In this document: one piece after another, positions 3,719 to 62,384 of the stretch | Layout: every line of letters starts with the position of its first letter | Numbering within the stretch: position 1 is the first letter of the stretch | Source of the DNA: Fibrobacter sp. | GTDB taxonomy: Bacteria > Fibrobacterota > Fibrobacteria > Fibrobacterales > Fibrobacteraceae | Length of the DNA stretch: 64,000 nucleotides | Direction of reading: 5' to 3' | Assembly (NCBI GenBank): GCA_017412605.1 | Contig: JAFPWY010000008.1 | Location: forward strand, 62,001 to 126,000 | The notes under the pieces: model-generated | Told to the model about the DNA's origin: nothing | The model's input: only the letters and a program-made list of their open reading frames with translations | Databases searched by the model: none | Position numbers and translations under genes: made by a program

Positions 3719-4984
3719 ATGAACGAAGTTACACAAGTCGTACCTGTCAGCGACGCCATCTTTATGACAGAAAACATTTGGATCATGATCAGCGCCATGC
3801 TGGTGTTCATCATGGGTCTAGGCTTTGCCTGCGTGGAAGCGGGTCTCGTGCGTGCGAAGTGCGCCGCCAACGTGGCATTCAAAAACATCGCGGTCCCCGC
3901 TATAGGCATCACGATGTACGCCCTGATAGGTTTCGGGCTCATGTACCCGGGAACTTTCAACGGGATTCTCGGTTTCGCAGGCTTCGGCATCGGCGACTGG
4001 GCGAACCCCTCTAGCTTCACCGCAGCCTACAACGGTCACTTTACGCTGTTTGCCGACTGGCTGTTCCAGGCAATGTTTGCAGCAACCGCAGCTACTATCG
4101 TGTCTGGTGCAGTCGCCGAGCGCGTGAAGCTCAACTCCTTCCTGGTCTTTACCCTCGTCTACGTGGCACTCGTCTACCCCATCGTGGGTAGCTGGACATG
4201 GGGCGGCGGCTGGCTTTCGACCATCGGCAAGGCTGGCTTCCATGACCTCGCTGGTTCTACGCTCGTCCACTCCGTGGGTGGCTGGGCAGCTCTCGCCGGC
4301 GTGATGATTCTCGGACCGCGTATCGGTAAGTACGTGAACGGAAAGGTTCATGCCATCCCGGCCCACAACATTCCGCTTGCAACTGTCGGTGTGTTCATGC
4401 TCTGGTTCGGTTGGTGGGGATTCAACGCCGGTTCTGCCCTCTCCGGCGACCCGAAGGCTACTAGCTGGATTCTTGTGACCACGAACCTCGCCGCTGTTGC
4501 AGGCATCATTACCGCAACGCTCACAAGCTGGATTGTCTCGAAGAAGCCCGACGCCACCATGGCCCTCAACGGATGCCTTGCCGGTCTCGTGGCAATCACT
4601 GCCGGTGCCGACGTGGTGACCCCGCTCTCCTCCTGGATTATCGGTGCCATCGCTGGTGTGCTCGTCGTGGGTGCTGTGTTCCTGTTCGACCGCCTGCACT
4701 TGGACGACCCGGTCGGTGCGCTCTCGGTTCACCTGGTGAACGGTGTGTGGGGCACGATCGCCGTGGGTATCTTCGATATGACTGGCGACTACAGCGTGCT
4801 CACCCAGCTCATCGGTGTCGCCGCCTACGCTGTCCCGTGCTTCGGTGCTGCTAGCCTGATTTTCTTCGCCATCAAGAAGACTATGGGCCTCCGCGTTACC
4901 GAACGTCAAGAACTCCGCGGCCTCGACCAAAGCGAACACGGACAAGAATCCTACAGCGGATTCCAAATCTTCAGCAACATGTAA
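3719..4984 (+). CDS. amtB: Ammonium transporter AmtB
   Basis: This inner-membrane channel conducts ammonium into the cell and belongs to the Amt/Rh family. It has 421 residues and about 11 hydrophobic segments. The Amt signature DLAGSTLVHSVGG lies at 176-188 with the first pore His at 184; the second pore His is at 338 in the VHLVNGVWG segment. The GSWTWGGGWL motif precedes the signature. The start has AAGGAA about 9 nt upstream. It is the second gene of a sigma-54-driven operon after P-II, so it is expected to be induced under nitrogen limitation and blocked by P-II when nitrogen returns. A palindromic repeat separates the two genes and could reduce expression of amtB relative to P-II (inference). 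Confidence 0.96.
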   Translation: MNEVTQVVPVSDAIFMTENIWIMISAMLVFIMGLGFACVEAGLVRAKCAANVAFKNIAVPAIGITMYALIGFGLMYPGTFNGILGFAGFGIGDWANPSSFTAAYNGHFTLFADWLFQAMFAATAATIVSGAVAERVKLNSFLVFTLVYVALVYPIVGSWTWGGGWLSTIGKAGFHDLAGSTLVHSVGGWAALAGVMILGPRIGKYVNGKVHAIPAHNIPLATVGVFMLWFGWWGFNAGSALSGDPKATSWILVTTNLAAVAGIITATLTSWIVSKKPDATMALNGCLAGLVAITAGADVVTPLSSWIIGAIAGVLVVGAVFLFDRLHLDDPVGALSVHLVNGVWGTIAVGIFDMTGDYSVLTQLIGVAAYAVPCFGAASLIFFAIKKTMGLRVTERQELRGLDQSEHGQESYSGFQIFSNM

Positions 4985-6517: not shown

Positions 6518-6581
6518 CGCAAAATCAACCCTCTAGGACTCGACTAAACGGAGCCATTTTTCTATCTTTGCCCCCGAAAGA

Positions 6582-6680
6582 AGTAAACAGTATACAGTGA
6601 TCAGTAAACAGGAATGTAAAAGGAACGTTCTTATTACAATCCCAACCACTAATCACTAACCACTAACCACCAACCACTAG
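6582..6680. repeat. Palindromic element with degenerate 7-nt-repeat arms (copy H3)
   Basis: The left arm (6582-6612) has units like AGTAAAC and AGTGATC. The right arm (6644-6680) has four to five tandem units of the type ACTAACC/ACTAATC, the approximate reverse complement of the left arm. The core contains GAACGTTC nested in TGTAA...TTACA. The element ends 8 nt before the aconitase start codon. Confidence 0.7.
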
Positions 6681-6688
6681 CCGCTATT

Positions 6689-8962
6689 ATGCTTTTCAAT
6701 TTCGACATGATCCAGGGCGTCTATGCCCGCATTCCTGCCCGCGTTGAAGCTGCCCGCAAGCAGCTGGGCCGTCCGCTCACCCTCGCCGAAAAGATTATCT
6801 ACAGCCACCTGATCGATGGCGCCGAGAACAGAATTTACGAACGCGGCAAGGATTTTGCCGAATTCCACCCCGACCGCGTGGCCATGCAGGACGCTACCGC
6901 CCAGATGGCCCTGCTCCAGTTTACCACCGCCGGTAAGGCCCGCGTGGCTGTGCCGAGCTCCGTGCACTGCGACCACTTGATTATCGCCCGCGAAGGTGTC
7001 GAGCGTGACCTCCCCCGCGCCAAGGAAGAAAGCAAGGAAGTGTACGACTTCTTGCAGTCCGTCTCTGCCAAGTACGGCATTGACTGCTGGCTCCCGGGTG
7101 CTGGCATCATCCACCAGGTGGTGCTCGAAAACTACGCCTTCCCGGGCGGAATGATGATCGGTACCGACTCCCACACCGTGAACGCTGGCGGTCTCGGCAT
7201 GCTCGCGATTGGCGTGGGCGGTGCAGACGCCGTGGACGCCATGGTCGGCCTCCCGTGGGAACTCAAGTACCCGAAGATGATCGGCGTGAAGCTCACCGGC
7301 AAACTCCAGGGCTTCGCTACCGCCAAGGACATCATCCTCAAGCTCGCTGGCATCCTCACTGTTAAGGGTGGCACCAACGCCATTATCGAATACTTTGGCG
7401 AAGGCGCACGCAGCCTCTCCGCTACCGGCAAGGCAACGATCGCCAACATGGGTGCCGAAGTGGGCGCTACCTGCTCTACCTTCAGCTACGACGATTCCAT
7501 GAGCCGCTACCTCAAGGTGACTGGCCGTGCCGACGTGGCCGCCGCTGCCGACAAGATTACAGAACACCTCAAGGCCGACCCCGAAGTCGAAGCAAATCCG
7601 GAAAAATATTTTGACCGCGTCGTGGAAATTGACCTGAGCACGCTCGTGCCGCACTTCAACGGCCCGTTCAGCCCGGACCGCGCCTACGCCGTGACCGACA
7701 TGGCAGAATCCCTCAAGGCCACCGAAACCAAGCCGGAATCTACGCCGGTCGTAAGCGCCGCCCTCATCGGTTCTTGCACGAACTCCAGCTACGAAGACCT
7801 CTTCATGGCCGCGAACATGATCAAGCAGGCCCTCGCCAAGGGTCTTTCCCCGAAGTGCCCGCTCCTCATCAACCCGGGTTCTGAACAGGTGCGCTACACC
7901 GCCGAACGCGACGGCCTCATCGACTTGTTCAAGCAGTTCGGTGCAACGATTATGACGAACGCCTGCGGTCCTTGCATTGGCCGTTGGGACCGTGCCGGTG
8001 CCGACAAGAAGGAACTCAACACCATCGTTCACAGCTTTAACCGCAACTTCGCCAAGCGCGCCGACGGCAACCCGAACACACACGCCTTTGTGGCAAGCCC
8101 GCTCATGGCCGTGATTGCCGCCCTCTCCGGCGACATCCGCTTCAACCCGATGACCGACACCCTCGTGAATAACGAAGGCAAGGCCGTCAAGCTCGACCCG
8201 CCGGAGCAGTGCGAACTGCCGCCGAAGGGCTTTGAAGTCAAGGACGCCGGCTATCAGGCTCCGGCCGAAGACGGTTCCAAGATTACCGTTTCCATCAACC
8301 CCGAAAGCAAGCGCCTCCAGGCCCTCGCACCGTTCGCGGCTTGGGACGGCAAGGACATCACTGGCGCCCCGATCCTCATCAAGGCCAAGGGCAAGTGCAC
8401 CACCGACCATATTTCCATGGCCGGTCCGTGGCTCAACTACCGCGGTCACCTCGAAAACATTTCGAACAACATGCTCATCGGCGCCGTGAACGCTTTCAAC
8501 GGCGAAACGAACAAGGTTCTCTGCCAGTGCGGTGAATACAAGGAAGTTCCGGAACTCGCCAAGATTTACAAGGCCAAGGGCACGGGCTCCATCGTCATCG
8601 GTGACGAAAACTACGGCGAAGGTTCCAGCCGCGAACACGCCGCCATGGAACCGCGTTTCCTCGGTGTGAAGGCCGTGATCGTGAAGAGCTTCGCCCGCAT
8701 TCACGAAACGAACCTCAAGAAGCAGGGCATGCTCGCCCTCACCTTCAAGAACGCCGCCGACTACGACAAGATTGAAGAACAGGACGTGTTCGACATCGTT
8801 GGCCTCACCAAGTTCGCTCCGGGTTCCGAGTTCACGCTCGTCGCCCACCACAAGGATGGCTCCGTCGACAACATCGCCCTCAGCCACACCTACAACGAAC
8901 AGCAGTGGGCATGGTTCAAGGCAGGCTCCGCCCTCAACCTGATCCGCGCGAACAACAAGTAA
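6689..8962 (+). CDS. Aconitate hydratase, mitochondrial-type
   Basis: Converts citrate to isocitrate through cis-aconitate in the cytoplasmic TCA cycle, using a [4Fe-4S] cluster. The 757-residue length and sequence fit the mitochondrial-type aconitase subfamily, also known from other FCB-group bacteria, rather than AcnA (about 890 residues) or AcnB. The cluster ligands are Cys363 (in GSCTNSS), Cys426 and Cys429 (NACGPC). The IGTDSHT motif lies near 157-163 and the C-terminal swivelling domain carries [10 protein letters not shown] near 641-650. The ATG at 6689 has no visible Shine-Dalgarno sequence because a repeat element occupies the leader. Codon bias suggests high expression. A terminator follows. 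Confidence 0.95.
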
Positions 8963-9013: not shown

Positions 9014-9042
9014 GAACGGAATGCACAATTCCGTTCTTTTTT
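9014..9042 (+). terminator. Terminator after aconitase
   Basis: GAACGGAAT and ATTCCGTTC (9014-9036) form a 9-bp stem with a 5-nt loop, followed by six T residues. It overlaps the stop codon of the converging minus-strand gene. Confidence 0.88.
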
Positions 9043-10363
9043 ATTCATTATTCGTCTGTACGGACTTCAGGCGATTCTTAAGCGCATCCACTTCGGCCTG
9101 CTCCATACCGAGTGCAACCAGGTATTTTTCTGTTGCAGCTGCCAGGTCGGCATTATCGAAATCCGAGATATCGACACCCACCGTATGGTATGAGTTCCGC
9201 ATATTCATGGCGATAATGTCCTTAAGCAAATCCACCTGATCCTGAGTCAAGGCAACCTGCATGTTATCAACCACGCTGCAATAGTTTATGAACGTCTTTG
9301 CATAATCCGTCTTGATTTCGTCAGCAGTCGCCCCCATCAGCGCCTCGAGCACCGCTATCGAGAACCCGGTCCGGTCCATGCCATAAGTGCAATGCAACAG
9401 GTAGGGGCCCTCATGTTCAATCATAAAGCGGTAGCCTTTGACAAGCCCATCCTTGAACACCTTGTTCACAAATGCCGGAGGGACCCCAAGGAAAATCGCA
9501 TTCTGCGTTGCATAATAGGAATCGGCAAAGTCCCTGTATGTCATGGCCGTTTCCATGCCTTCGGCAAAATCCACGAAGGTCGCAACTCCAGCCACCTTGG
9601 CCAGGGAATCGGCATACAAATTGCGACCCAGCGACGGATCGATTGGGCTTGATGAACGATACAAGACACCCTCGCCCATTCCCGTCGTGTTCACCTTCCT
9701 GAAATTCGCAAATTCCTCAATGGAAAGAGTCGGATATGCCTCCAAATAATACGACATCGTCAGATGTTGACGCATTTCCAAATATTTGGTATAACCGCCC
9801 TTTTCCTTAATTTTCACAGAAACATTTATCGGGAATTTGACATCGCGCCCGATACCAATGGCTTCTGCAGGGTCCCCATTTAGAACCTCAAAAGAAACAT
9901 AGCCCGAGCCGTCACCGACACTTAAAAGAAATTCTCCTACAGAGACCTCGCCTCTGTATCCAACCACAGGGACATCCACCGTATCGTAGCCTTCCACCAT
10001 CAACGTAACGAGATCGCCACGTTCAAATATGGTCAAGAACGAATCTGCCCTGAAATTGAGATTCATAGAAGCATAATAGAACAGATCCAAAGTGTCTTCT
10101 ATAATCGTCGCCGAAATCTCGGTGATTTTCTCTGCGGGAACGATTTCCGTAGATTCCGATGAACCGACAGAAGAACAGGACGGATTTTCGATAAAAGAAC
10201 TGCTTGAAAAAAACTCTGACGATGAACTTGATTCTTCAACGATAACTGCGCTACTTTCACCACTCACAAGGGCGGCACTGCTACTATCATCGTCGCCACA
10301 AGCGACAAAGCCGGCACAGACAAGGCAAGCCGTCAGCAATAAAAATCTTAGAAATTGACGCAT
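9041..10363 (-). CDS. Lipoprotein with tyrosine-phosphatase-like domain
   Basis: This 440-residue protein has a lipoprotein signal with lipobox FVAC (Cys22), a CGDDDSSSA start to the mature chain and a Ser-rich linker to about residue 75. A beta-rich middle region (about 80-210) leads into a C-terminal domain that resembles the bacterial Tyr/Ser phosphatase family (IphP-like, PF13350): LYRSSSP at about 234-240 and the catalytic P-loop HCTYGMDRTG with Cys325 and Arg331 (CX5R). It is predicted to be a phosphatase attached to the outer membrane or cell surface; the substrate is unknown. It is the last of three consecutive lipoprotein genes and follows its neighbour by 34 bp. The phosphatase call rests on the P-loop and spacing. 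Confidence 0.85.
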   Translation of the reverse strand: MRQFLRFLLLTACLVCAGFVACGDDDSSSAALVSGESSAVIVEESSSSSEFFSSSSFIENPSCSSVGSSESTEIVPAEKITEISATIIEDTLDLFYYASMNLNFRADSFLTIFERGDLVTLMVEGYDTVDVPVVGYRGEVSVGEFLLSVGDGSGYVSFEVLNGDPAEAIGIGRDVKFPINVSVKIKEKGGYTKYLEMRQHLTMSYYLEAYPTLSIEEFANFRKVNTTGMGEGVLYRSSSPIDPSLGRNLYADSLAKVAGVATFVDFAEGMETAMTYRDFADSYYATQNAIFLGVPPAFVNKVFKDGLVKGYRFMIEHEGPYLLHCTYGMDRTGFSIAVLEALMGATADEIKTDYAKTFINYCSVVDNMQVALTQDQVDLLKDIIAMNMRNSYHTVGVDISDFDNADLAAATEKYLVALGMEQAEVDALKNRLKSVQTNNE

Positions 10364-10397: not shown

Positions 10398-11912
10398 TTA
10401 CGGTTTCAGCAATAGTTTCTTGTTTTCCAAGAGGCCTTCGTTGTCAAAGCGGACGGTCGGATTTTGGCCTTTTTTGAAGGATTCTTCACTTTCGTAGAGG
10501 GAAAGGGCGATGGAAACTCCCGGCTGGGTCGCAACATTCGCCTTCCCCGCAGCCTTATAGACAAAGGAGAAATCCTGCGAACCGCCGTCCTTGAAAGTCG
10601 CCTTGGGAATGCGAACGGTCTCGCCAATTTGCGCGAGCGCCTTGCCCGTAGAGTCTACGAATTCCGCCACCATGTAGACATCGAAGAAACAGGGGGCCAC
10701 GCCGGTATTCTTGACGGTAATGTTCAGCGTGCTTGTAGTGTCTTTGGCGTTTTCGATGGTTACCAATTCCGCTTGCGTTACCACGAAATTGTAGCCAATG
10801 ACCTTGCTCATGGAATCGGCAAGGACTTTATTGTCCTTGTAAAAATTGTAACCGCAATCGCTGTCCTGGTCCAGAACGTAGTAAGTCAAGTGGGCCGAAG
10901 TAATCGCATCCACCCAGCGTTCCGGAGTCCACTTCTGATTTCCCCCGGGAATCAGATCGTCGTAAGCAAGCATCGTCTTGTAACCGGCTATATTTTCGGC
11001 AATAGTCGGTAGATTCGCATTGTACGCCCGCAACAAAGTATCCGGCCTGCCGGGAATGCCAATGAACCCATCATCTCGCTTGGTAATGCCGAGTTCAAGC
11101 GCATGCGTATAAACATCGCCAAAACCGTTAGATGGCAGAACCAACTGAGTTTTCTTGAACAGGGATGCGTAATAGTCCAGCATGTCGATCAACACCGAAT
11201 CGGCTGGCATTTCACTCCCCAATATGTGAGATGTGTGCCATTCGCCCCATTCGCCAAAAGTGCGGATGTCAATGTATTCTATGCGCGGATCGCCATCGTA
11301 TTTTTCGGCCAGAGCCTTTGCAAACTCCTTTGCTGCCCAAATATAGATGGAATCATCCCAGACCGGAGCGTATGCATGGTAGTCAGTCCCACGCAAGTCA
11401 ATCTGTATCTTCTTCGCCCCCATTTCGTAGACAAAAGGCGGAGTCCAATCGTAATCCTCTTCTGGCGGAAAATCGCTCTTGATAAAAGATGGCGTGTACG
11501 GCAACACGCGCAAGGCGTAGCCCATGTTGTGCTCGGCCAAAGCATTCAAAAGTTTTTCCAATTCCGTCCAGTCGTAAACACCTTTTGCCGGGTTCAACTT
11601 GTTCCACTGCTGATGGCCGGAACCATAGGAGACAAGGTCCCACGCTTTGTTGTTCAGGGAACCGTAAGGGCCGTATTCGAACTCCGGCACGAACACCCAA
11701 GCGCCACCCGTCGGAACCGTAAATCCCTTGTGCGGGTTGGAAAGCGGGCCGTCGAAACGCTTGAGCGCGTAGGTGATTTTGGTAGTGTCGGCAACAACCG
11801 CGCTGTTTTCGTCGCCCTCGGGGCCGGAACTGCTCGCGTCATCGCCACAAGCGACAAAACCCATGCACACAAAGAATGCAATCAATACTAAAAATTTCGA
11901 ATCTCTATGCAT
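10398..11912 (-). CDS. Lipoprotein with glycosidase-like TIM barrel and DUF4832-like C-terminus
   Basis: With the start at 11912 the protein has 504 residues and a typical lipoprotein leader (lipobox FVAC, Cys22, then GDDASSSG) that closely resembles the leader of the downstream phosphatase-like protein. An alternative ATG at 11936 would add eight residues. From about residue 45 it looks like a (beta/alpha)8 glycosidase-like barrel: NPHKGF near 59-64, then a DIRTFGEWGEWH segment (215-226) whose two Glu residues are candidate catalytic acids. The last 130 residues form a beta-sandwich like the DUF4832 family. I infer action on an extracellular carbohydrate, but no known CAZy family can be assigned from sight. 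The upstream lipoprotein ends 27 bp before this start. Confidence 0.8.
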   Translation of the reverse strand: MHRDSKFLVLIAFFVCMGFVACGDDASSSGPEGDENSAVVADTTKITYALKRFDGPLSNPHKGFTVPTGGAWVFVPEFEYGPYGSLNNKAWDLVSYGSGHQQWNKLNPAKGVYDWTELEKLLNALAEHNMGYALRVLPYTPSFIKSDFPPEEDYDWTPPFVYEMGAKKIQIDLRGTDYHAYAPVWDDSIYIWAAKEFAKALAEKYDGDPRIEYIDIRTFGEWGEWHTSHILGSEMPADSVLIDMLDYYASLFKKTQLVLPSNGFGDVYTHALELGITKRDDGFIGIPGRPDTLLRAYNANLPTIAENIAGYKTMLAYDDLIPGGNQKWTPERWVDAITSAHLTYYVLDQDSDCGYNFYKDNKVLADSMSKVIGYNFVVTQAELVTIENAKDTTSTLNITVKNTGVAPCFFDVYMVAEFVDSTGKALAQIGETVRIPKATFKDGGSQDFSFVYKAAGKANVATQPGVSIALSLYESEESFKKGQNPTVRFDNEGLLENKKLLLKP

Positions 11913-11939
11913 AGGTAAAATCACGATTAAATCCATTCC

Positions 11940-23587: not shown

Positions 23588-23609
23588 CGCGGTCCCTAAA
23601 GGGGCCGCG
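23588..23609. terminator. Possible bidirectional terminator between converging genes
   Basis: CGCGGTCCC and GGGGCCGCG (23588-23596 / 23601-23609) form a GC-rich stem. T tracts are poor on both sides, so termination is only probable. Confidence 0.5.
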
Positions 23610-23645: not shown

Positions 23646-24791
23646 TTAGAACAAAGCGATATTGTAAGGAGGAAGGGCACCCTTCGGCTGCTTGATGGTA
23701 TTCTTCTTCTTGCCGTTCCACGTGACAACAGCAGAAGCGCCGCGATCACCGACATAGAGCAAACCATCGTCAATAGCCATGGAGCCGGACATGTCGGTAA
23801 AGCCGTCAATGTCTTCGACCTTCTTGGAAGAAAGATTCACCTTCTTCAAGGACTGCACGGCAGCGTAGTTTTCGTCGTAGCCGAGGTTGATTGCCACATA
23901 GGCAATTTCGTCTTCGACGACCATCGAAGCAACGCCGCCACCCAGCTTTTCACCGGAAATCATCACTTCGGATTTCTTCTTGGAGACATTCACCTTCTCG
24001 ATACCGCGCTTACTGTCGGCATCGGTGCCAGAAGCCGCATTGTATTCACCATGGGTCGCCACATAGACTTCACCATCGACAATGGCAATGGTCGAGGGGT
24101 TCTTGGTCTTGAGCTGGATAGTATCCTTCAAGTCGCCCGAGGAAGCATCGTAGATAGCGAGCAGGCCCTTGGGATAAGTAGTCACCCAGTTTTCATCCAT
24201 CGTGTAGCGCTGGAACAAGACATAAAGGGTACCGTCATCGAGTTCGATGTCGGCTACATACGGGGAATTTTCGCCTTCGTAAGCAAACTTTCCAGTTTTG
24301 ATAGACTTTTTAACTTTGCCATCCTTCGTCGAAATCTTCACCAGGGAATCGGCATTCTGCAATGCGACCCAGGCCTGATCTCCATCGAAAGCCATGTCGG
24401 TCGGATTCGCATCATCGTCCAAGGAAACCTGCCACACCACGGCCTTCTTGCCTTCGGATTCCAGCTTGTCGGGGTCAATCTTTGTAATGTTGTCCGCACC
24501 CTTGCGTTCCAGCACGTAGAGGTCAGCACCGTTCGTAACGACCTTGGAATCCTGGTGGAAGGAGAGGCTCTTCTTGGAGATTTCGCCATCCTTGTCAATC
24601 CAGCGGAGTTCGCCGGTCTTGTAGTCGGAGCCGAATACGACACCGGCTACGGAAACCTCGACTTCTTCCGGGGCGCTGCTGGAACTGGAGTCGTCGCCGC
24701 AAGCCGTCATAAAGACGAGAGAGGCAATGGACAATGCAGCGAAGGATTGCTTCGCCACACTCGCAATGACATTCTTTTTCATTTTATTCAT
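23646..24791 (-). CDS. Beta-propeller lipoprotein, BtuG-like, downstream of btuB
   Basis: This 381-residue protein has a lipoprotein signal ending MTAC and a CGDDSSSSS start to the mature chain. The mature part consists of repeated blades of the YncE/NHL-like beta-propeller type (NPTDMAFDGDQAWVALQNADSLVKI; NPSTIAIVDGEVYVATHG; SGSMAIDDGLLYVGDRGASAV). It starts 43 bp after a TonB-dependent receptor gene under a cobalamin riboswitch. In Bacteroides, BtuG is a surface propeller lipoprotein that binds vitamin B12 and works with BtuB; position and fold suggest the same here (inference). The ATG has AAAGGA 7 nt upstream. Oddly, the signal peptide encodes VIASVAKQS, the translation of a palindromic repeat (24744-24771). 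Confidence 0.82.
   Translation of the reverse strand: MNKMKKNVIASVAKQSFAALSIASLVFMTACGDDSSSSSAPEEVEVSVAGVVFGSDYKTGELRWIDKDGEISKKSLSFHQDSKVVTNGADLYVLERKGADNITKIDPDKLESEGKKAVVWQVSLDDDANPTDMAFDGDQAWVALQNADSLVKISTKDGKVKKSIKTGKFAYEGENSPYVADIELDDGTLYVLFQRYTMDENWVTTYPKGLLAIYDASSGDLKDTIQLKTKNPSTIAIVDGEVYVATHGEYNAASGTDADSKRGIEKVNVSKKKSEVMISGEKLGGGVASMVVEDEIAYVAINLGYDENYAAVQSLKKVNLSSKKVEDIDGFTDMSGSMAIDDGLLYVGDRGASAVVTWNGKKKNTIKQPKGALPPYNIALF
24744..24771. repeat. CATTGCGAG...GCAATC-type repeat inside the signal peptide coding region
   Basis: On the minus strand GTCATTGCGAG and GAAGCAATCC flank a 7-nt centre. This matches the arms of the repeat at 30244-30335 and a class of palindromes seen in many bacteria. 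It is read in frame as VIASVAKQS. Confidence 0.7.
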
Positions 24792-24834
24792 ATTGTGTTC
24801 CTTTTCTGGCTTTACGCATTTTTTTGCGCGGGGG

Positions 24835-26895
24835 CTAGAACCCCTGTATTATGGTGAACTTGTATTCCCTCCCCGGCATGGGGAACGGGGTATAAAAATT
24901 GCGGTACTGTTCGTCGGTGATGTTATCCACAGAAAAAGCGAGGCGAGTTTTCTCAAATGGCAGGTAAGAAAGAACAGCGCGGTGGTTTGCCACAGCCGGC
25001 TGGTCCATACGGTTTGCACGGTCGCTGTACATGATGCTGCGCCATTCCGACGCCCACATCAAATCCAGATGCAGCGGCAAGTGGAGCGTGGCCTCGGCAA
25101 AATAGCTGCAGTCGGGCTCCCCGGGGAGCTTGTTCCCGTTATACGTATCCGATTTCGAGCGGTCTTCTGTCTTCTGGAATGTGGCACGCAACACGACATC
25201 CAAGAATTTTGCAGGAGTGCTGTTCAGTTCGAATTCGGCACCGCGCACCCGTGAACGGGCTATGTTTTCGGCATGCAGGTGTTCCACGACAATCACCCAG
25301 CAAATACCGTCTTCGATATGCGATTCAAAATACGCAGCCCTCAAGGACGTGTGGCCTCCCGGCACCTTGAACAAGCCAGAAGCCTCGAACTTGGTCGCCT
25401 TTTCCCGTTTGAGTTTCGGATTCGATAAGGCTCCCGGGAAGGTTCCGTAAAGTTCCATCAATGCGGGCTGCTGGTAAAAACGACCCAGCGAAACCTCCCC
25501 CGTCACCGGAATTTCAGAATTCCCTAGGCGCGTGTAGGCGCGCCCCGAAAGAGTCAAATCACGGTCTTCAGCTTCATCCAGGGTACGGCCCCCTGTGGGC
25601 AACACAAAAGTTCCCTCGTCCAGACGGTCCTTCAAAAAATGCACTGAGCCCTCTCCTCCGAGTCCCGCATACTTGAAAAGCTGGTAATACAGGTCTCCGG
25701 AGCTCACCAAGTTCAAGCGATCCAGCGCCCAGTCCTTAGAGACACCACGCGCTTCGGCACGTTCCCATTCCGCAGCCAAACGGGCAGCGCCCTTCAGGCG
25801 GTTCCACAAAGTCCACTCGGCCGAAACCTCGGGGACGAGCTTGTAGACTGCCGCCCCATATTCCAGGAACTCGTTACTCGAATAGCCCAGATGGTCCAAC
25901 GGGTAATAGGAACTCGAAACATTCTTGTCGAACCGGTACGAAATGCCGCCATACAAGAAAAGCGCATCGTCAAAAAAACCGGGCGATTCCAGGCCATAGC
26001 GGATAAGCGCCGACTCCCCGACAAAATCGGCAACAACGGTCTGCTGTTCTTCTTTGCCTGGATTTCCGCCCTCAAACCGAGTTGCCGTCACAGACAACGT
26101 CGAGAAAGAACCGTTCCCGTGCAGCATGCGGAACTGCGCATTGCCCGACACGTCCGTATATTCCGCATTTTGGCGCGTGGCCGTGAAGTCATCGTCGTCG
26201 TTGTACTGCGTCCCGTTGCGGTTCGTGTACTCATAGTCGTTGTCGGAATGCCTGGTGGCAAACGAAGAGGCGAACATAATGCTATCAGTCACCGGCGAAC
26301 TCACCTGGAAGGCCCCCTCCCACGTGTTGTGGTTCCCATAAGCAAGCAAGACGCGACCGCCTCTCTTCACGGCATTCTTCGTCACGAAATTGACGGCACC
26401 GCCGAGTCCCGTCACGCCGAACTTCGCAGGGACATTGCCCTTGAACACCTCGACTTTTTCCATCTGGTTCAGGTCGATGGACGCAAGGTTCACCGCGCCG
26501 CCACTCGCATCGTTCAGCGGGACCCCGTCCACACAAATCAAGATGTTCCTCGCCGCAATCCCGCGAATGGACACCGACTGGAAACTCCCGAGACCGCCCT
26601 GCTTGTAAGCCTGGATCCCAGGAAGGGTCGAAAGGAGGTCCGCCGCCGTCAGCGACTTGCCCTCCCAGGCCGACGAATTGATTTCGGTATAGCTTACATC
26701 TTGTGCGGGCAGGTAACCGGTAGCGCTCACCACATCCGAAGAGCCCAAATCTTGCACCGGGTCGTTTGCAGAAACGATAGACACATCCTCCGGGGAACCT
26801 TCCGAAGGAGGAACAGCGGCACTGCCCGCCCAAGCAAGGGCACAGCACCAAAAAGCCGCAACGCATGCAGCCTTAAAGAATGACGTCTTTCGCAT
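24835..26895 (-). CDS. btuB: TonB-dependent receptor, cobalamin (BtuB-like)
   Basis: This 686-residue outer-membrane receptor has a signal peptide (1-24). A TonB-box-like DVVSATG (54-60) precedes the plug domain (about 68-180): LLSTLPGIQ, SVSIRGIAARNILICVDGVPLND and VEVFKGNVPAKFG are typical. The beta barrel fills the rest and ends in a C-terminal Phe. It imports a substrate with TonB/ExbBD energy. A cobalamin riboswitch directly upstream identifies the substrate as vitamin B12 or another corrinoid. The start is the ATG at 26895, preceded by AGAGG; a TTG one codon earlier is not needed. It forms an operon with the beta-propeller lipoprotein. The inner-membrane BtuFCD genes are not in this window. 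Confidence 0.93.
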   Translation of the reverse strand: MRKTSFFKAACVAAFWCCALAWAGSAAVPPSEGSPEDVSIVSANDPVQDLGSSDVVSATGYLPAQDVSYTEINSSAWEGKSLTAADLLSTLPGIQAYKQGGLGSFQSVSIRGIAARNILICVDGVPLNDASGGAVNLASIDLNQMEKVEVFKGNVPAKFGVTGLGGAVNFVTKNAVKRGGRVLLAYGNHNTWEGAFQVSSPVTDSIMFASSFATRHSDNDYEYTNRNGTQYNDDDDFTATRQNAEYTDVSGNAQFRMLHGNGSFSTLSVTATRFEGGNPGKEEQQTVVADFVGESALIRYGLESPGFFDDALFLYGGISYRFDKNVSSSYYPLDHLGYSSNEFLEYGAAVYKLVPEVSAEWTLWNRLKGAARLAAEWERAEARGVSKDWALDRLNLVSSGDLYYQLFKYAGLGGEGSVHFLKDRLDEGTFVLPTGGRTLDEAEDRDLTLSGRAYTRLGNSEIPVTGEVSLGRFYQQPALMELYGTFPGALSNPKLKREKATKFEASGLFKVPGGHTSLRAAYFESHIEDGICWVIVVEHLHAENIARSRVRGAEFELNSTPAKFLDVVLRATFQKTEDRSKSDTYNGNKLPGEPDCSYFAEATLHLPLHLDLMWASEWRSIMYSDRANRMDQPAVANHRAVLSYLPFEKTRLAFSVDNITDEQYRNFYTPFPMPGREYKFTIIQGF

Positions 26896-26910
26896 CAAAC
26901 CTCTAAAAAA

Positions 26911-27090
26911 CGTTTTTGCAGTTCTTCTGGCTCGGGGATCGTCCTACGCCGGCTCCTTCGCATGCAAGCACACTGGTTTCGAAATTCTGCCGGTTTCGTC
27001 CTCCCTTACAGCGGCGGGACCGCTCCGGTTTTTCACCGGATTCTCTCCGACCAGGCATACGCCAAATCGGGCTTTTCGGGGCACAAAAAC
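26911..27090 (-). promoter_or_regulatory. Cobalamin riboswitch
   Basis: Reading the minus strand from 27090: GTGCC near the 5' side, then the conserved block GAGAATCCGGTGAAAAACCG, the GCGGTCCCGCCGCTGT segment, and the 3' GAGCCAGAAGA box (about 26922-26936). These are the hallmarks of the B12 aptamer. Between aptamer and start codon lies AAAAACGTTTTTT, a small self-complementary T-rich hairpin that may be the expression platform, then AGAGG and the btuB ATG. High cobalamin should shut off the operon. Confidence 0.95.
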
Positions 27091-27176
27091 TATTTGCGAA
27101 AAATTTACATATATGAGGGGGTATTGTAAAGGGCCGTACAAACGACGGCCCTCTATACAATCGACATTGTCAAGGA

Positions 27177-31924: not shown

Positions 31925-33520
31925 TTAGATTGCGTCAAGGAAGTCCCAAAGATCCTTCTGCGTCTTGAACTGCGGGAAAATTCCGCCGAACGTAGGATCC
32001 GGGAAGATTATGTTGTTCGGACCATCATCGGGCAGGACCAAATCTTTATCGATAAAGCGGGAAACCGGGACCGTCTTTTCGCCATTCTTGTCGGTAAAGT
32101 AGAACGTATTCAGGTCGCTCTTGTCCTCGAAAGAATAATACGGAAGGAACGCTTCGAATCCATCACCCTGCTCAAAGAACTTGCGGAAGACGCATTCCAG
32201 CTCTTCGCCATTAACGGAAACCGTCACGGAACCGCGGACACCATCAAGAGCATCATCGATCTTGTCTATAAGTTCCTGCAGGTCGCCCTTGCTCACATCG
32301 GCATCGGCACCACGGCCGACAATGTACAGGTCATTAGTCTGGGAGCCCGGCTTTGACGCCTCGGCAATGCTGTATTCAAAAGCATCCTTGACTTCGGACA
32401 AGGCACTATCGAGAAGCGTGGGAACAGACATCCAAGCGAACTTCTTCTTAGAATCAACCTTCGTAAACGTGCCGTTCACGCCGATGAGATTCTCAAGAAC
32501 CTTAACCACTGCCGTTTGGTCTTCGTCCAGTTCGCGTTCATCGAAGACGTCTTCGAGAAGCTTCAAATCCTTCATCCAGGAGTAGTCGCCGTTATCGTCA
32601 ATTTCAAAGTTCAACGACGTGGCCACCAAGATCACGGCCTTAGTCGCAAACAGTCCACCTAGGATCACACCGAATTCGCTCTTGTCCAATTCACGAACGA
32701 AATCAACATTTTCTACTCGCATAAAATAATCGTCCTGGGCAAGGACATACTGCATATAGGAAATAGCCGTATCAATCGTCGGAAGGACTTCTTCAAGGAG
32801 AACCTTCTGGGTATTCTTTGTAAAGGTGCGTTCATTGGAAGACATTTCTTCTGCCATCTGGACAAAATCGTCGATGGAAGAAATATTACCATTGAACCAA
32901 TGCTTGTAATCGCTAGCGAGATTACCAAGCGTTTCGTTGTTAACCAGGTCCACGACAGAGGTCACGGCATAGCCCAACTTGGCCCCGCAACTATTCGGAT
33001 ACTTGTCGATAATCCGCTTGTACATGGGCTTCAATTCGGTCGTTCTGTCTTCAAGGTCTTCCTTATCAAGATCGGCCAGAGCTTCAAAGATATCGGCAGC
33101 TTTCTTGTTCACTGCAGTCAAGGCCAGAAGACCTTTGCTGTCCATGACCAAGTCACAATCTGCAAATCCCTTGGTCGTTGTTTCGCCCGGATTGGACTTG
33201 GACGAAGACGACTTGGTTTCATCGGACGTTTTGCCGCCCTCTTTTTTAGAAGACGAACTAGAAACCTTCGTGTTCTTGGCCGAAGAGGAACTCAAGGTCG
33301 TTTTTCCCCCTGGAACAGAAGATGACATCGGGGTGGTCTTTCCACCTTCGACAGAAGAAGACGAAGTATTTCCTAAAAGATCATCCAGGTCGTCTAAAGT
33401 GAACGACGAACTCATCGCCGTCAGATCAATAGGCTTTGTTGTTGAATGACTATCATCGGAACAAGCACCCAACATGAACAGAAAAGACAACGAAGCAACA
33501 GCCAATAAATATTTTGACAT
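31925..33520 (-). CDS. Large lipoprotein with Ser/Lys linker, unknown function
   Basis: This 531-residue protein has a lipoprotein signal with lipobox LGAC and a CSDDSHSTT start to the mature chain. Residues 30-120 form a linker with repeats of GGKTT and SSSS (EGGKTTPMSSS, PGGKTTLSSSS). The globular remainder is mostly helical (ADIFEALADLDKEDLEDRTTELKPMYKRIIDKYPNS), reminiscent of a TPR-like array, followed by a Phe/Asp-rich C-terminal region. No named domain is recognised. AGGAGG precedes the ATG. It lies 52 bp after the kinase gene and 7 bp before the barrel gene, so the three are probably co-transcribed. Confidence 0.8.
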   Translation of the reverse strand: MSKYLLAVASLSFLFMLGACSDDSHSTTKPIDLTAMSSSFTLDDLDDLLGNTSSSSVEGGKTTPMSSSVPGGKTTLSSSSAKNTKVSSSSSKKEGGKTSDETKSSSSKSNPGETTTKGFADCDLVMDSKGLLALTAVNKKAADIFEALADLDKEDLEDRTTELKPMYKRIIDKYPNSCGAKLGYAVTSVVDLVNNETLGNLASDYKHWFNGNISSIDDFVQMAEEMSSNERTFTKNTQKVLLEEVLPTIDTAISYMQYVLAQDDYFMRVENVDFVRELDKSEFGVILGGLFATKAVILVATSLNFEIDDNGDYSWMKDLKLLEDVFDERELDEDQTAVVKVLENLIGVNGTFTKVDSKKKFAWMSVPTLLDSALSEVKDAFEYSIAEASKPGSQTNDLYIVGRGADADVSKGDLQELIDKIDDALDGVRGSVTVSVNGEELECVFRKFFEQGDGFEAFLPYYSFEDKSDLNTFYFTDKNGEKTVPVSRFIDKDLVLPDDGPNNIIFPDPTFGGIFPQFKTQKDLWDFLDAI

Positions 33521-61550: not shown

Positions 61551-62384
61551 CTAGCGGAAAACAGCGGTTTTACCGTTCTCGAACCGAACAATGCGTGTCG
61601 AGCCCGTCGCCTTTAGCGACCCCTGCCAGATGCCACTACGGATAAAGACTCCGTTCACGTCGAACTCGCTGTAACGCAAGCCCAGCAAAGAACCGTTTAC
61701 CGGTGCCTCGCGCGAAATGAAGAGCGGTTTTTCCGTCGAATCAGGAGTTGTCACATTCGCAGAATCCCCCTCCTGGACGCCAGCGGAATCCTTCGGTTGC
61801 TCACCTACCGGATCTTTTGCCGACGTGTCTACCTGGACGAGAACCGAAGATTCGGCTAGAATTTTTTTTTGAGGGAGGCGCGCAAAGTCCTCTTCTGGAA
61901 TTCCTCCCGAAGCTCCTCCACCAGCACCCGATTGAAAATAACACGTCAAAGGATTATCTTCGCATTTTTTCTTAAAGACTATATCCGTATTTATAATACG
62001 GGCATCACCCGAAATAATCTTCTCTATCAATGTTTGGGCACTATCCTTCGACATATTGAGGACACCCCAACTCTGCCAATTCATGAACTCATAACGCATA
62101 ACTCTTGCCATCACATAATAAAGGGAATCGGGCAAAGACATGCAATAAATCCGAATTTTGGGAACATGCGGTTCAGAAAAAACCGCACAATTTGTATCTA
62201 GCGTTGAATAATATGCAAGCCCCTGTTCCGGCGCATAATTGACATACAGAGTGTCAACGGCAAGAACTTTTGATGAGTCAATATTCAAATAGCCTTTTTC
62301 GAACTGGAGGTTGGCCCACCATACCCCGACAGCACTCCATGCCGAAGCTACAAATAACGCGACAGATATTAATATCAGCCTCAT
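61551..62384 (-). CDS. Secreted protein of unknown function
   Basis: This 277-residue protein starts with a signal peptide (LILISVALFVASAWSA) and AAGGAGG lies just upstream. The first 150 residues have WxW and NYAPEQGLAYYSTLDTN segments and two likely disulfide Cys pairs; then a Gly-rich stretch, a Ser/Asp/Glu-rich linker (about 190-225) and a short C-terminal beta module (LLGLRYSEFDVNGVFIRSG ... VRFENGKTAVFR) follow. That last module resembles a C-terminal sorting-type domain, but I am not certain. It starts 13 bp after the stop of the larger secreted protein, so they form an operon. Confidence 0.7.
   Translation of the reverse strand: MRLILISVALFVASAWSAVGVWWANLQFEKGYLNIDSSKVLAVDTLYVNYAPEQGLAYYSTLDTNCAVFSEPHVPKIRIYCMSLPDSLYYVMARVMRYEFMNWQSWGVLNMSKDSAQTLIEKIISGDARIINTDIVFKKKCEDNPLTCYFQSGAGGGASGGIPEEDFARLPQKKILAESSVLVQVDTSAKDPVGEQPKDSAGVQEGDSANVTTPDSTEKPLFISREAPVNGSLLGLRYSEFDVNGVFIRSGIWQGSLKATGSTRIVRFENGKTAVFR

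Follow-up and report, generated by a model that had tools for sequence, protein, structure and literature searches.

A two-gene operon on the minus strand of contig JAFPWY010000008.1 of Fibrobacter sp. (assembly GCA_017412605.1) lies behind a cobalamin riboswitch and encodes a predicted TonB-dependent corrinoid transporter, btuB, followed by a β-propeller lipoprotein that resembles BtuG of Bacteroides. The window analysed here is the 64,000-nucleotide stretch that contains this operon (contig positions 62,001 to 126,000), and the features of the locus are collected in Table 1. With RF00174 (gathering score 31.5) the aptamer scores 93.4 bits (E = 6e-22), and it is the sole match in the 3.53-Mb genome, which is 99.5% complete. 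An initial annotation, made from the letters of the DNA, had placed such an aptamer directly 5′ of btuB, and the full-length match bears this out. The end given there for the locus, 27090, is slightly short, as the aptamer reaches 27103.

The Shine-Dalgarno sequence of btuB lies at the 3′ end of the aptamer. Most of the Fibrobacter relatives with forward-stored loci likewise have a GAGG at or just past the aptamer end, with an ATG 4–9 nt further on. Moreover, a terminator scan of the leader on the operon strand called no terminator-like site, which is why translational control was preferred to transcriptional attenuation. Together, the position of the aptamer end and the lack of a called terminator suggest that translational control is the likeliest mode of action of this riboswitch.

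The btuB product carries a TonB-dependent Plug domain (PF07715 in Pfam, E = 2e-18), and its nearest sequences in the PDB include E. coli BtuB. Its AlphaFold barrel model (predicted local distance difference test, pLDDT, 81) is closest in fold to BtuB3 of B. thetaiotaomicron, XusA, BtuB1 and E. coli BtuB, the top four structural matches being chains of the lid-capped BtuB3, XusA and BtuB1. The score against the NCBIfam TonB-B12 equivalog TIGR01779 is 96.8 bits, well below the cutoff of 599.7, so that it is the riboswitch and the fold that support a B12 assignment, and the 686-residue product is best regarded as a divergent BtuB. Candidates for btuCD, btuF and metH were located elsewhere in the genome by family searches. 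These are one strong FecCD permease with an adjoining ATPase (contig 1), one Peripla_BP_2 protein (contig 2) and a 1,214-residue B12-binding protein (contig 3), which by its size would be MetH; the genome-wide RF00174 scan places no riboswitch at any of these genes.

Table 1. Features of the riboswitch-btuB-propeller locus, in window coordinates
Feature	Position	Strand	Basis or remark
Cobalamin riboswitch aptamer (RF00174)	26900..27103	minus	Full-length cmscan match, model positions 1-189
Shine-Dalgarno AGAGG of btuB	26900..26904	minus	Directly 3′ of the aptamer P1 strand; read from sequence
btuB, predicted TonB-dependent corrinoid transporter, 686 aa	24835..26895	minus	ATG 26895; alternative TTG 26898
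BtuG-like seven-bladed β-propeller lipoprotein, 381 aa	23646..24791	minus	AlphaFold2, Foldseek, VIA-align
Codon of lipobox Cys31	24699..24701	minus	Read from sequence; ..MTAC31 then GDDSSSSS
Dispersed palindromic repeat GTCATTGCGAG-N4-GCGAAGCAATC	24745..24770	minus	Inside signal-peptide codons (VIASVAKQS)
Promoter-like sites TTTACA-17-TAAATT	27102..27130	minus	Just 5′ of the aptamer; consensus scan, 9/12 matches
8-bp GC-rich palindrome, possible terminator	23589..23608		Where the operon and an HD-domain gene converge; by eye

Fold of the lipoprotein and its relation to BtuG

No Pfam family matches the 381-residue protein above cutoff, and a single-sequence phmmer search of the PDB returned no match, BtuG included. 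An AlphaFold2 model calculated with 44 relatives is a confident seven-bladed propeller (mean pLDDT 89, approximately 96 over the domain), in which one C-terminal and three N-terminal strands close the ring. When this model was compared with the whole PDB using Foldseek, chains of BtuG1 and BtuG2 took ranks 1–4, followed by XusB, a designed propeller, 3dsm (BtuG) and others. A search of the whole PDB with VIA-align 2 placed BtuG chains (BtuG1, BtuG2 and BtuG3) at ranks 1–10, with Z-scores of 28.3–29.6 over 290–296 residues at 2.6–3.0 Å. The initial annotation had predicted a β-propeller and named a comparison with BtuG2 as one way to check it; no other fold emerged, and BtuG1 and BtuG2 head the PDB matches. 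Two further features that it held to be shared with BtuG, the lipid anchor and the btuB partner, are also present, in that the protein has a lipobox cysteine, kept in at least 90% of the sequences in the family alignments, and its gene lies directly behind btuB. The family-conserved loop residues cluster on one face of the propeller: among the top 40 conserved positions, 15 are on pocket-side loops and one is on a back-side loop (Fisher p = 0.011).

In sequence the relationship is more distant. When the PDB is searched with a family profile, BtuG1 is matched at 1e-4. BtuG was originally recognised by a BlastP E value below 1e-10 to BtuG1-3, divergent genes being accepted by fold match as well (PMC6143338); the Fibrobacter propeller falls short of this threshold, with the null phmmer result and the profile value of 1e-4. 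The protein is thus best described as BtuG-like and not as BtuG proper. DUF5074 (PF16819), to which BtuG2 belongs in Pfam (match at 2e-20), is matched by four of the 45 propeller family members, deep Fibrobacterota members among them (best value 7e-10), and its matches in the genomes fall in btuB-linked propellers such as those of G118, G134, G141 and G142; the window protein has no such match. This family is not specific for BtuG, since the same search also catches E. coli and an archaeon. Some propeller family members weakly match PQQ_2/BamB. The BtuG2 sequence used in the comparison is identical letter for letter to 8bai and 3dsm, and its residue numbering was checked.

The acidic start after the cysteine, which the initial annotation had singled out, is indeed present but is not specific to the propeller. 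Acidic and serine-containing starts are common among other Fibrobacter lipoproteins too, and in the window C-(G/S)-D-D-like starts also occur in the predicted lipoproteins encoded at 1-585, 1891-2925, 9041-10363, 10398-11936 and 31925-33520 (minus). Over the six positions after the cysteine, the D/E fraction is 0.26 in the propellers and 0.14 in the remaining predicted lipoproteins encoded at the propeller loci. A start of this kind is possibly a Fibrobacter lipoprotein sorting signal.

Distribution, operon context and circular permutation

The distribution of the propeller was surveyed in 167 Fibrobacterota genomes from 40 genera, 111 of them from the family Fibrobacteraceae. Propeller family members were found in 154 of these genomes and 39 of the genera, and in 100 of the 111 Fibrobacteraceae genomes, where a handful of matches were to the signal-peptide repeat only. 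Of 148 propeller loci, 121 have a same-strand riboswitch above the cutoff at a distance of 2.0–5.2 kb upstream, and in nearly all of the loci read the interval is filled by btuB. Almost everywhere, one propeller gene stands immediately behind one btuB, and the order riboswitch-btuB-propeller recurs in more than 100 genomes, which is far beyond chance. Two tandem propeller lipoproteins are encoded behind a single btuB in locus L219 (L219:5340-6458 and 6568-7950).

The order differs in termite lineages, where a riboswitch stands immediately 5′ of the propeller gene. In 12 loci of genera g2 and g4, a riboswitch match lies 47–178 nt directly before this gene. Most of these matches are below the RF00174 cutoff, and several of the propeller-proximal aptamers score best as AdoCbl-II, some of them above the AdoCbl-II cutoff. 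Candidatus Fibrimonas termitidis (L233) also has the order aptamer-propeller-btuB, and in one of the g2/g4 loci (L100) the riboswitch-preceded propeller gene stands alone, with no btuB beside it. Aptamers placed directly before the propeller, in one case where btuB is missing, indicate that the propeller is under corrinoid control independently of btuB.

Outside the Fibrobacteraceae, the operon is often extended to riboswitch-btuB-propeller-btuF-btuD-btuC-cobQ, the general order in the deeper lineages being riboswitch-(cobUTS)-btuB-propeller-btuF-btuD-btuC-(cobQ/cobA). The propeller gene of these deep lineages sits between btuB and btuF, in operons that include btuDC and genes for cobyric acid synthase, CobA, CbiR, CobU, CobT or CobS. 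The locus L168:143-9279 (G166), with the order riboswitch-cbiR-cobU-cobT-cobS-btuB-propeller-btuF-btuD-btuC, is a complete corrinoid remodelling and uptake operon. This phylum-wide linkage to the riboswitch, to btuB and btuFDC and to cobalamin salvage genes supports a role of the propeller with corrinoids, and the operon context is the strongest argument for such a function.

Multiple riboswitches were observed at two further sites. Four cobalamin-type riboswitches lie within approximately 12.5 kb at L120:702-13170 (G012), where they precede a lipoprotein gene cluster encoding a propeller, a 1,340-residue Fib_succ_major lipoprotein, an anaerobic ribonucleotide reductase (nrdD and an activase-like gene) and btuB. 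In G129, two cobalamin riboswitches stand back to back on opposite strands approximately 450 bases apart (C156:4072-4256, minus, and 4704-4914, plus).

Thirteen of the 153 propeller entries sampled (some loci were sampled twice) are circularly permuted, with blades 4-7 preceding blades 1-3, behind a long serine-rich tether. These forms (L101-L113; for example, L107:6476-7966) come from three genera and occur together with their own btuB. Relatives of 500 residues were considered as propellers with an internal gap, a reading that was ruled out as their domain order is that of a circular permutation. In a tree of the BtuB sequences, a single branch separates the partners of the permuted propellers from the rest, which requires one change (Shimodaira–Hasegawa-like approximate likelihood-ratio test, SH-aLRT, 99), and the propeller type follows the BtuB tree and not the genus. 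Genera g6 and g11 are represented in the permuted group, and their remaining members have the normal form with other BtuB types. From this pattern, the propeller type and btuB seem to have passed together from genus to genus. That the permuted group crosses genera with its btuB supports a functional BtuB-propeller pair.

Proposed corrinoid capture by a BtuB lid, and its alternatives

Taken together, the data are best accommodated if btuB and the propeller gene encode an outer-membrane uptake unit that is repressed by corrinoid and has the propeller as a surface capture lid on BtuB, a reading to which we assign a probability of about 0.78. When corrinoid is low in the cell the aptamer would be empty and the ribosome site of btuB open, so that BtuB and the lipoprotein are made. 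The propeller would be lipid-anchored and, we infer, surface-exposed, most likely on the outer face of the outer membrane, where corrinoid could be captured in its central pocket. Seated as a lid in complex with BtuB, it would pass the ligand on to the transporter for import powered by TonB. BtuF and BtuCD, which in this genome would be encoded elsewhere and in the deeper lineages belong to the same operon, would complete uptake and feed MetH. When corrinoid is plentiful, the ligand would stabilise P1, hide the Shine-Dalgarno sequence and so repress the operon at translation.

Several observations weigh against this reading. The margin of the BtuG chains over their runners-up is small (Z = 27.8 for the archaeal surface propeller 1l0q and 25.6 for XusB), propellers being alike in general. 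The family is marginally similar to BtuG in sequence (E = 1.6e-5 and a probability of 79% when aligned with BtuG2 by hhalign), and the mean conservation of pocket-side and back-side loops differs only weakly (p = 0.07). In BtuG2 the upper-ligand pocket is narrowed by the aromatic residues W194, W272 and Y316 (PMC10404256). These are not conserved in the Fibrobacter family, which in an approximate profile alignment has Q194/R195, Gly and Ser/Gly in their place, and the binding chemistry may therefore differ from that of BtuG2; the alignment brings the family-conserved Y250 of the blade-5 loop to one residue or less from BtuG2 Tyr239. Finally, we know of no lipoprotein export signal for Fibrobacterota that would support an outward orientation of the propeller.

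The last point also favours a periplasm-facing lipoprotein that would serve BtuB as a structural or chaperone-like partner, in the manner of the outer-membrane propeller BamB, and the weak PQQ_2/BamB matches of some family members point the same way. The fold ranking, however, puts BtuG above BamB, and the D/E-rich start after the cysteine would fit an export signal without proving one; we regard this arrangement as very improbable. A propeller that binds another ligand and is merely co-regulated with btuB has a precedent in XusB, a siderophore-binding propeller lipoprotein paired with the TonB-dependent XusA (PMC13142918), and both XusB and XusA are among the fold matches. XusB nevertheless lies below every listed BtuG chain in structural score, and the locus departs from an XusB-type siderophore or iron-acquisition locus in being under a cobalamin riboswitch, which in relatives also stands directly before a lone propeller gene, and in having relatives within operons of btuFDC and cobalamin salvage genes. 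Of the alternatives, this is the one we consider least probable.

A corrinoid reservoir at the surface deserves more weight, although it too is unlikely. Here the propeller would be free or loosely associated, like BtuH/BtuJ, and would deliver its ligand to BtuB transiently without forming a lid. Such a role would suit the termite-lineage propeller genes that have their own riboswitch and stand alone or in several copies, the tandem propellers behind one btuB, and the long serine-rich linker that shifts the anchor point in the permuted clade. Against it, one propeller gene follows one btuB immediately almost everywhere, the correspondence between propeller type and BtuB lineage is what a tight pair would show, and lid-capped transporters are the closest matches of the BtuB model.

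If the lid reading is correct, the permuted proteins provide a ready-made natural experiment on how a lid is hinged. The lid of BtuBG is reportedly hinged at its N-terminus. With a permuted propeller on an otherwise ordinary BtuB lineage, a lid could not depend on a fixed N-terminal hinge, and a hinge of the BtuBG type would then not be universal, provided that the permuted proteins are lids. It is accordingly a tentative proposal, and one we hold with less than even confidence, that a propeller-capped BtuB is a phylum-wide trait of the Fibrobacterota and not an invention of the Bacteroidetes, with a lid that is independent of a fixed N-terminal hinge and in which capture and hand-over proceed with the anchor on a different side.

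The nearest structures in the PDB, BtuG1, BtuG2 and BtuG3 of B. thetaiotaomicron (8blw, 8bmx and 8p97; PMC6143338, PMC10404256), share with the Fibrobacter propeller the seven blades, the lipobox cysteine, the btuB neighbour, control by a cobalamin riboswitch and a strongly negative net charge (−16 here and −15 for BtuG2 by the same count). The Fibrobacter protein differs from them in its low identity (11–17%), its pocket residues, its phylum, the presence of a single riboswitch-btuB-propeller locus in the genome, the permuted form in one clade and the lack of a demonstrated Bacteroides-type export signal. The E. coli BtuB-BtuF-BtuCD system likewise comprises a transporter, a binding protein and an ATP-binding cassette transporter for B12, but has no surface propeller partner. 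Fibrobacterota are another phylum of the FCB group beside the Bacteroidetes. BtuG has been reported in Bacteroidetes only (PMC6143338), and lipoprotein-capped TonB-dependent transporters have been called exclusive to that phylum (PMC10404256); a literature search that missed most subscription papers and preprints found no publication linking BtuG to Fibrobacter. A near-universal propeller lid in Fibrobacterota would imply a system of greater age or mobility than has been assumed, and would place major cellulose degraders of the rumen among the high-affinity competitors for corrinoids.

Minor features of the locus

The promoter-like sites 5′ of the aptamer are weak, as the consensus scan finds three in the region where 1.7 are expected by chance. 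The GC-rich palindrome beyond the propeller gene was not called by the terminator scan, which requires a T run.

The palindromic repeat within the signal-peptide codons of the propeller gene has eight copies in the genome at up to two mismatches, with none in a reverse-read control; one other copy is at C7:202110-202135 and six lie elsewhere. At least two unrelated lipoproteins have it in frame within their signal peptides, where it encodes VIASVAKQS-like residues. A second match to the propeller, at C7:201938-202153, was considered as a paralogue and ruled out, as it is this repeat in the signal peptide of another lipoprotein. Palindromic repeats placed within signal peptides in this way are reminiscent of the Rickettsia palindromic elements.

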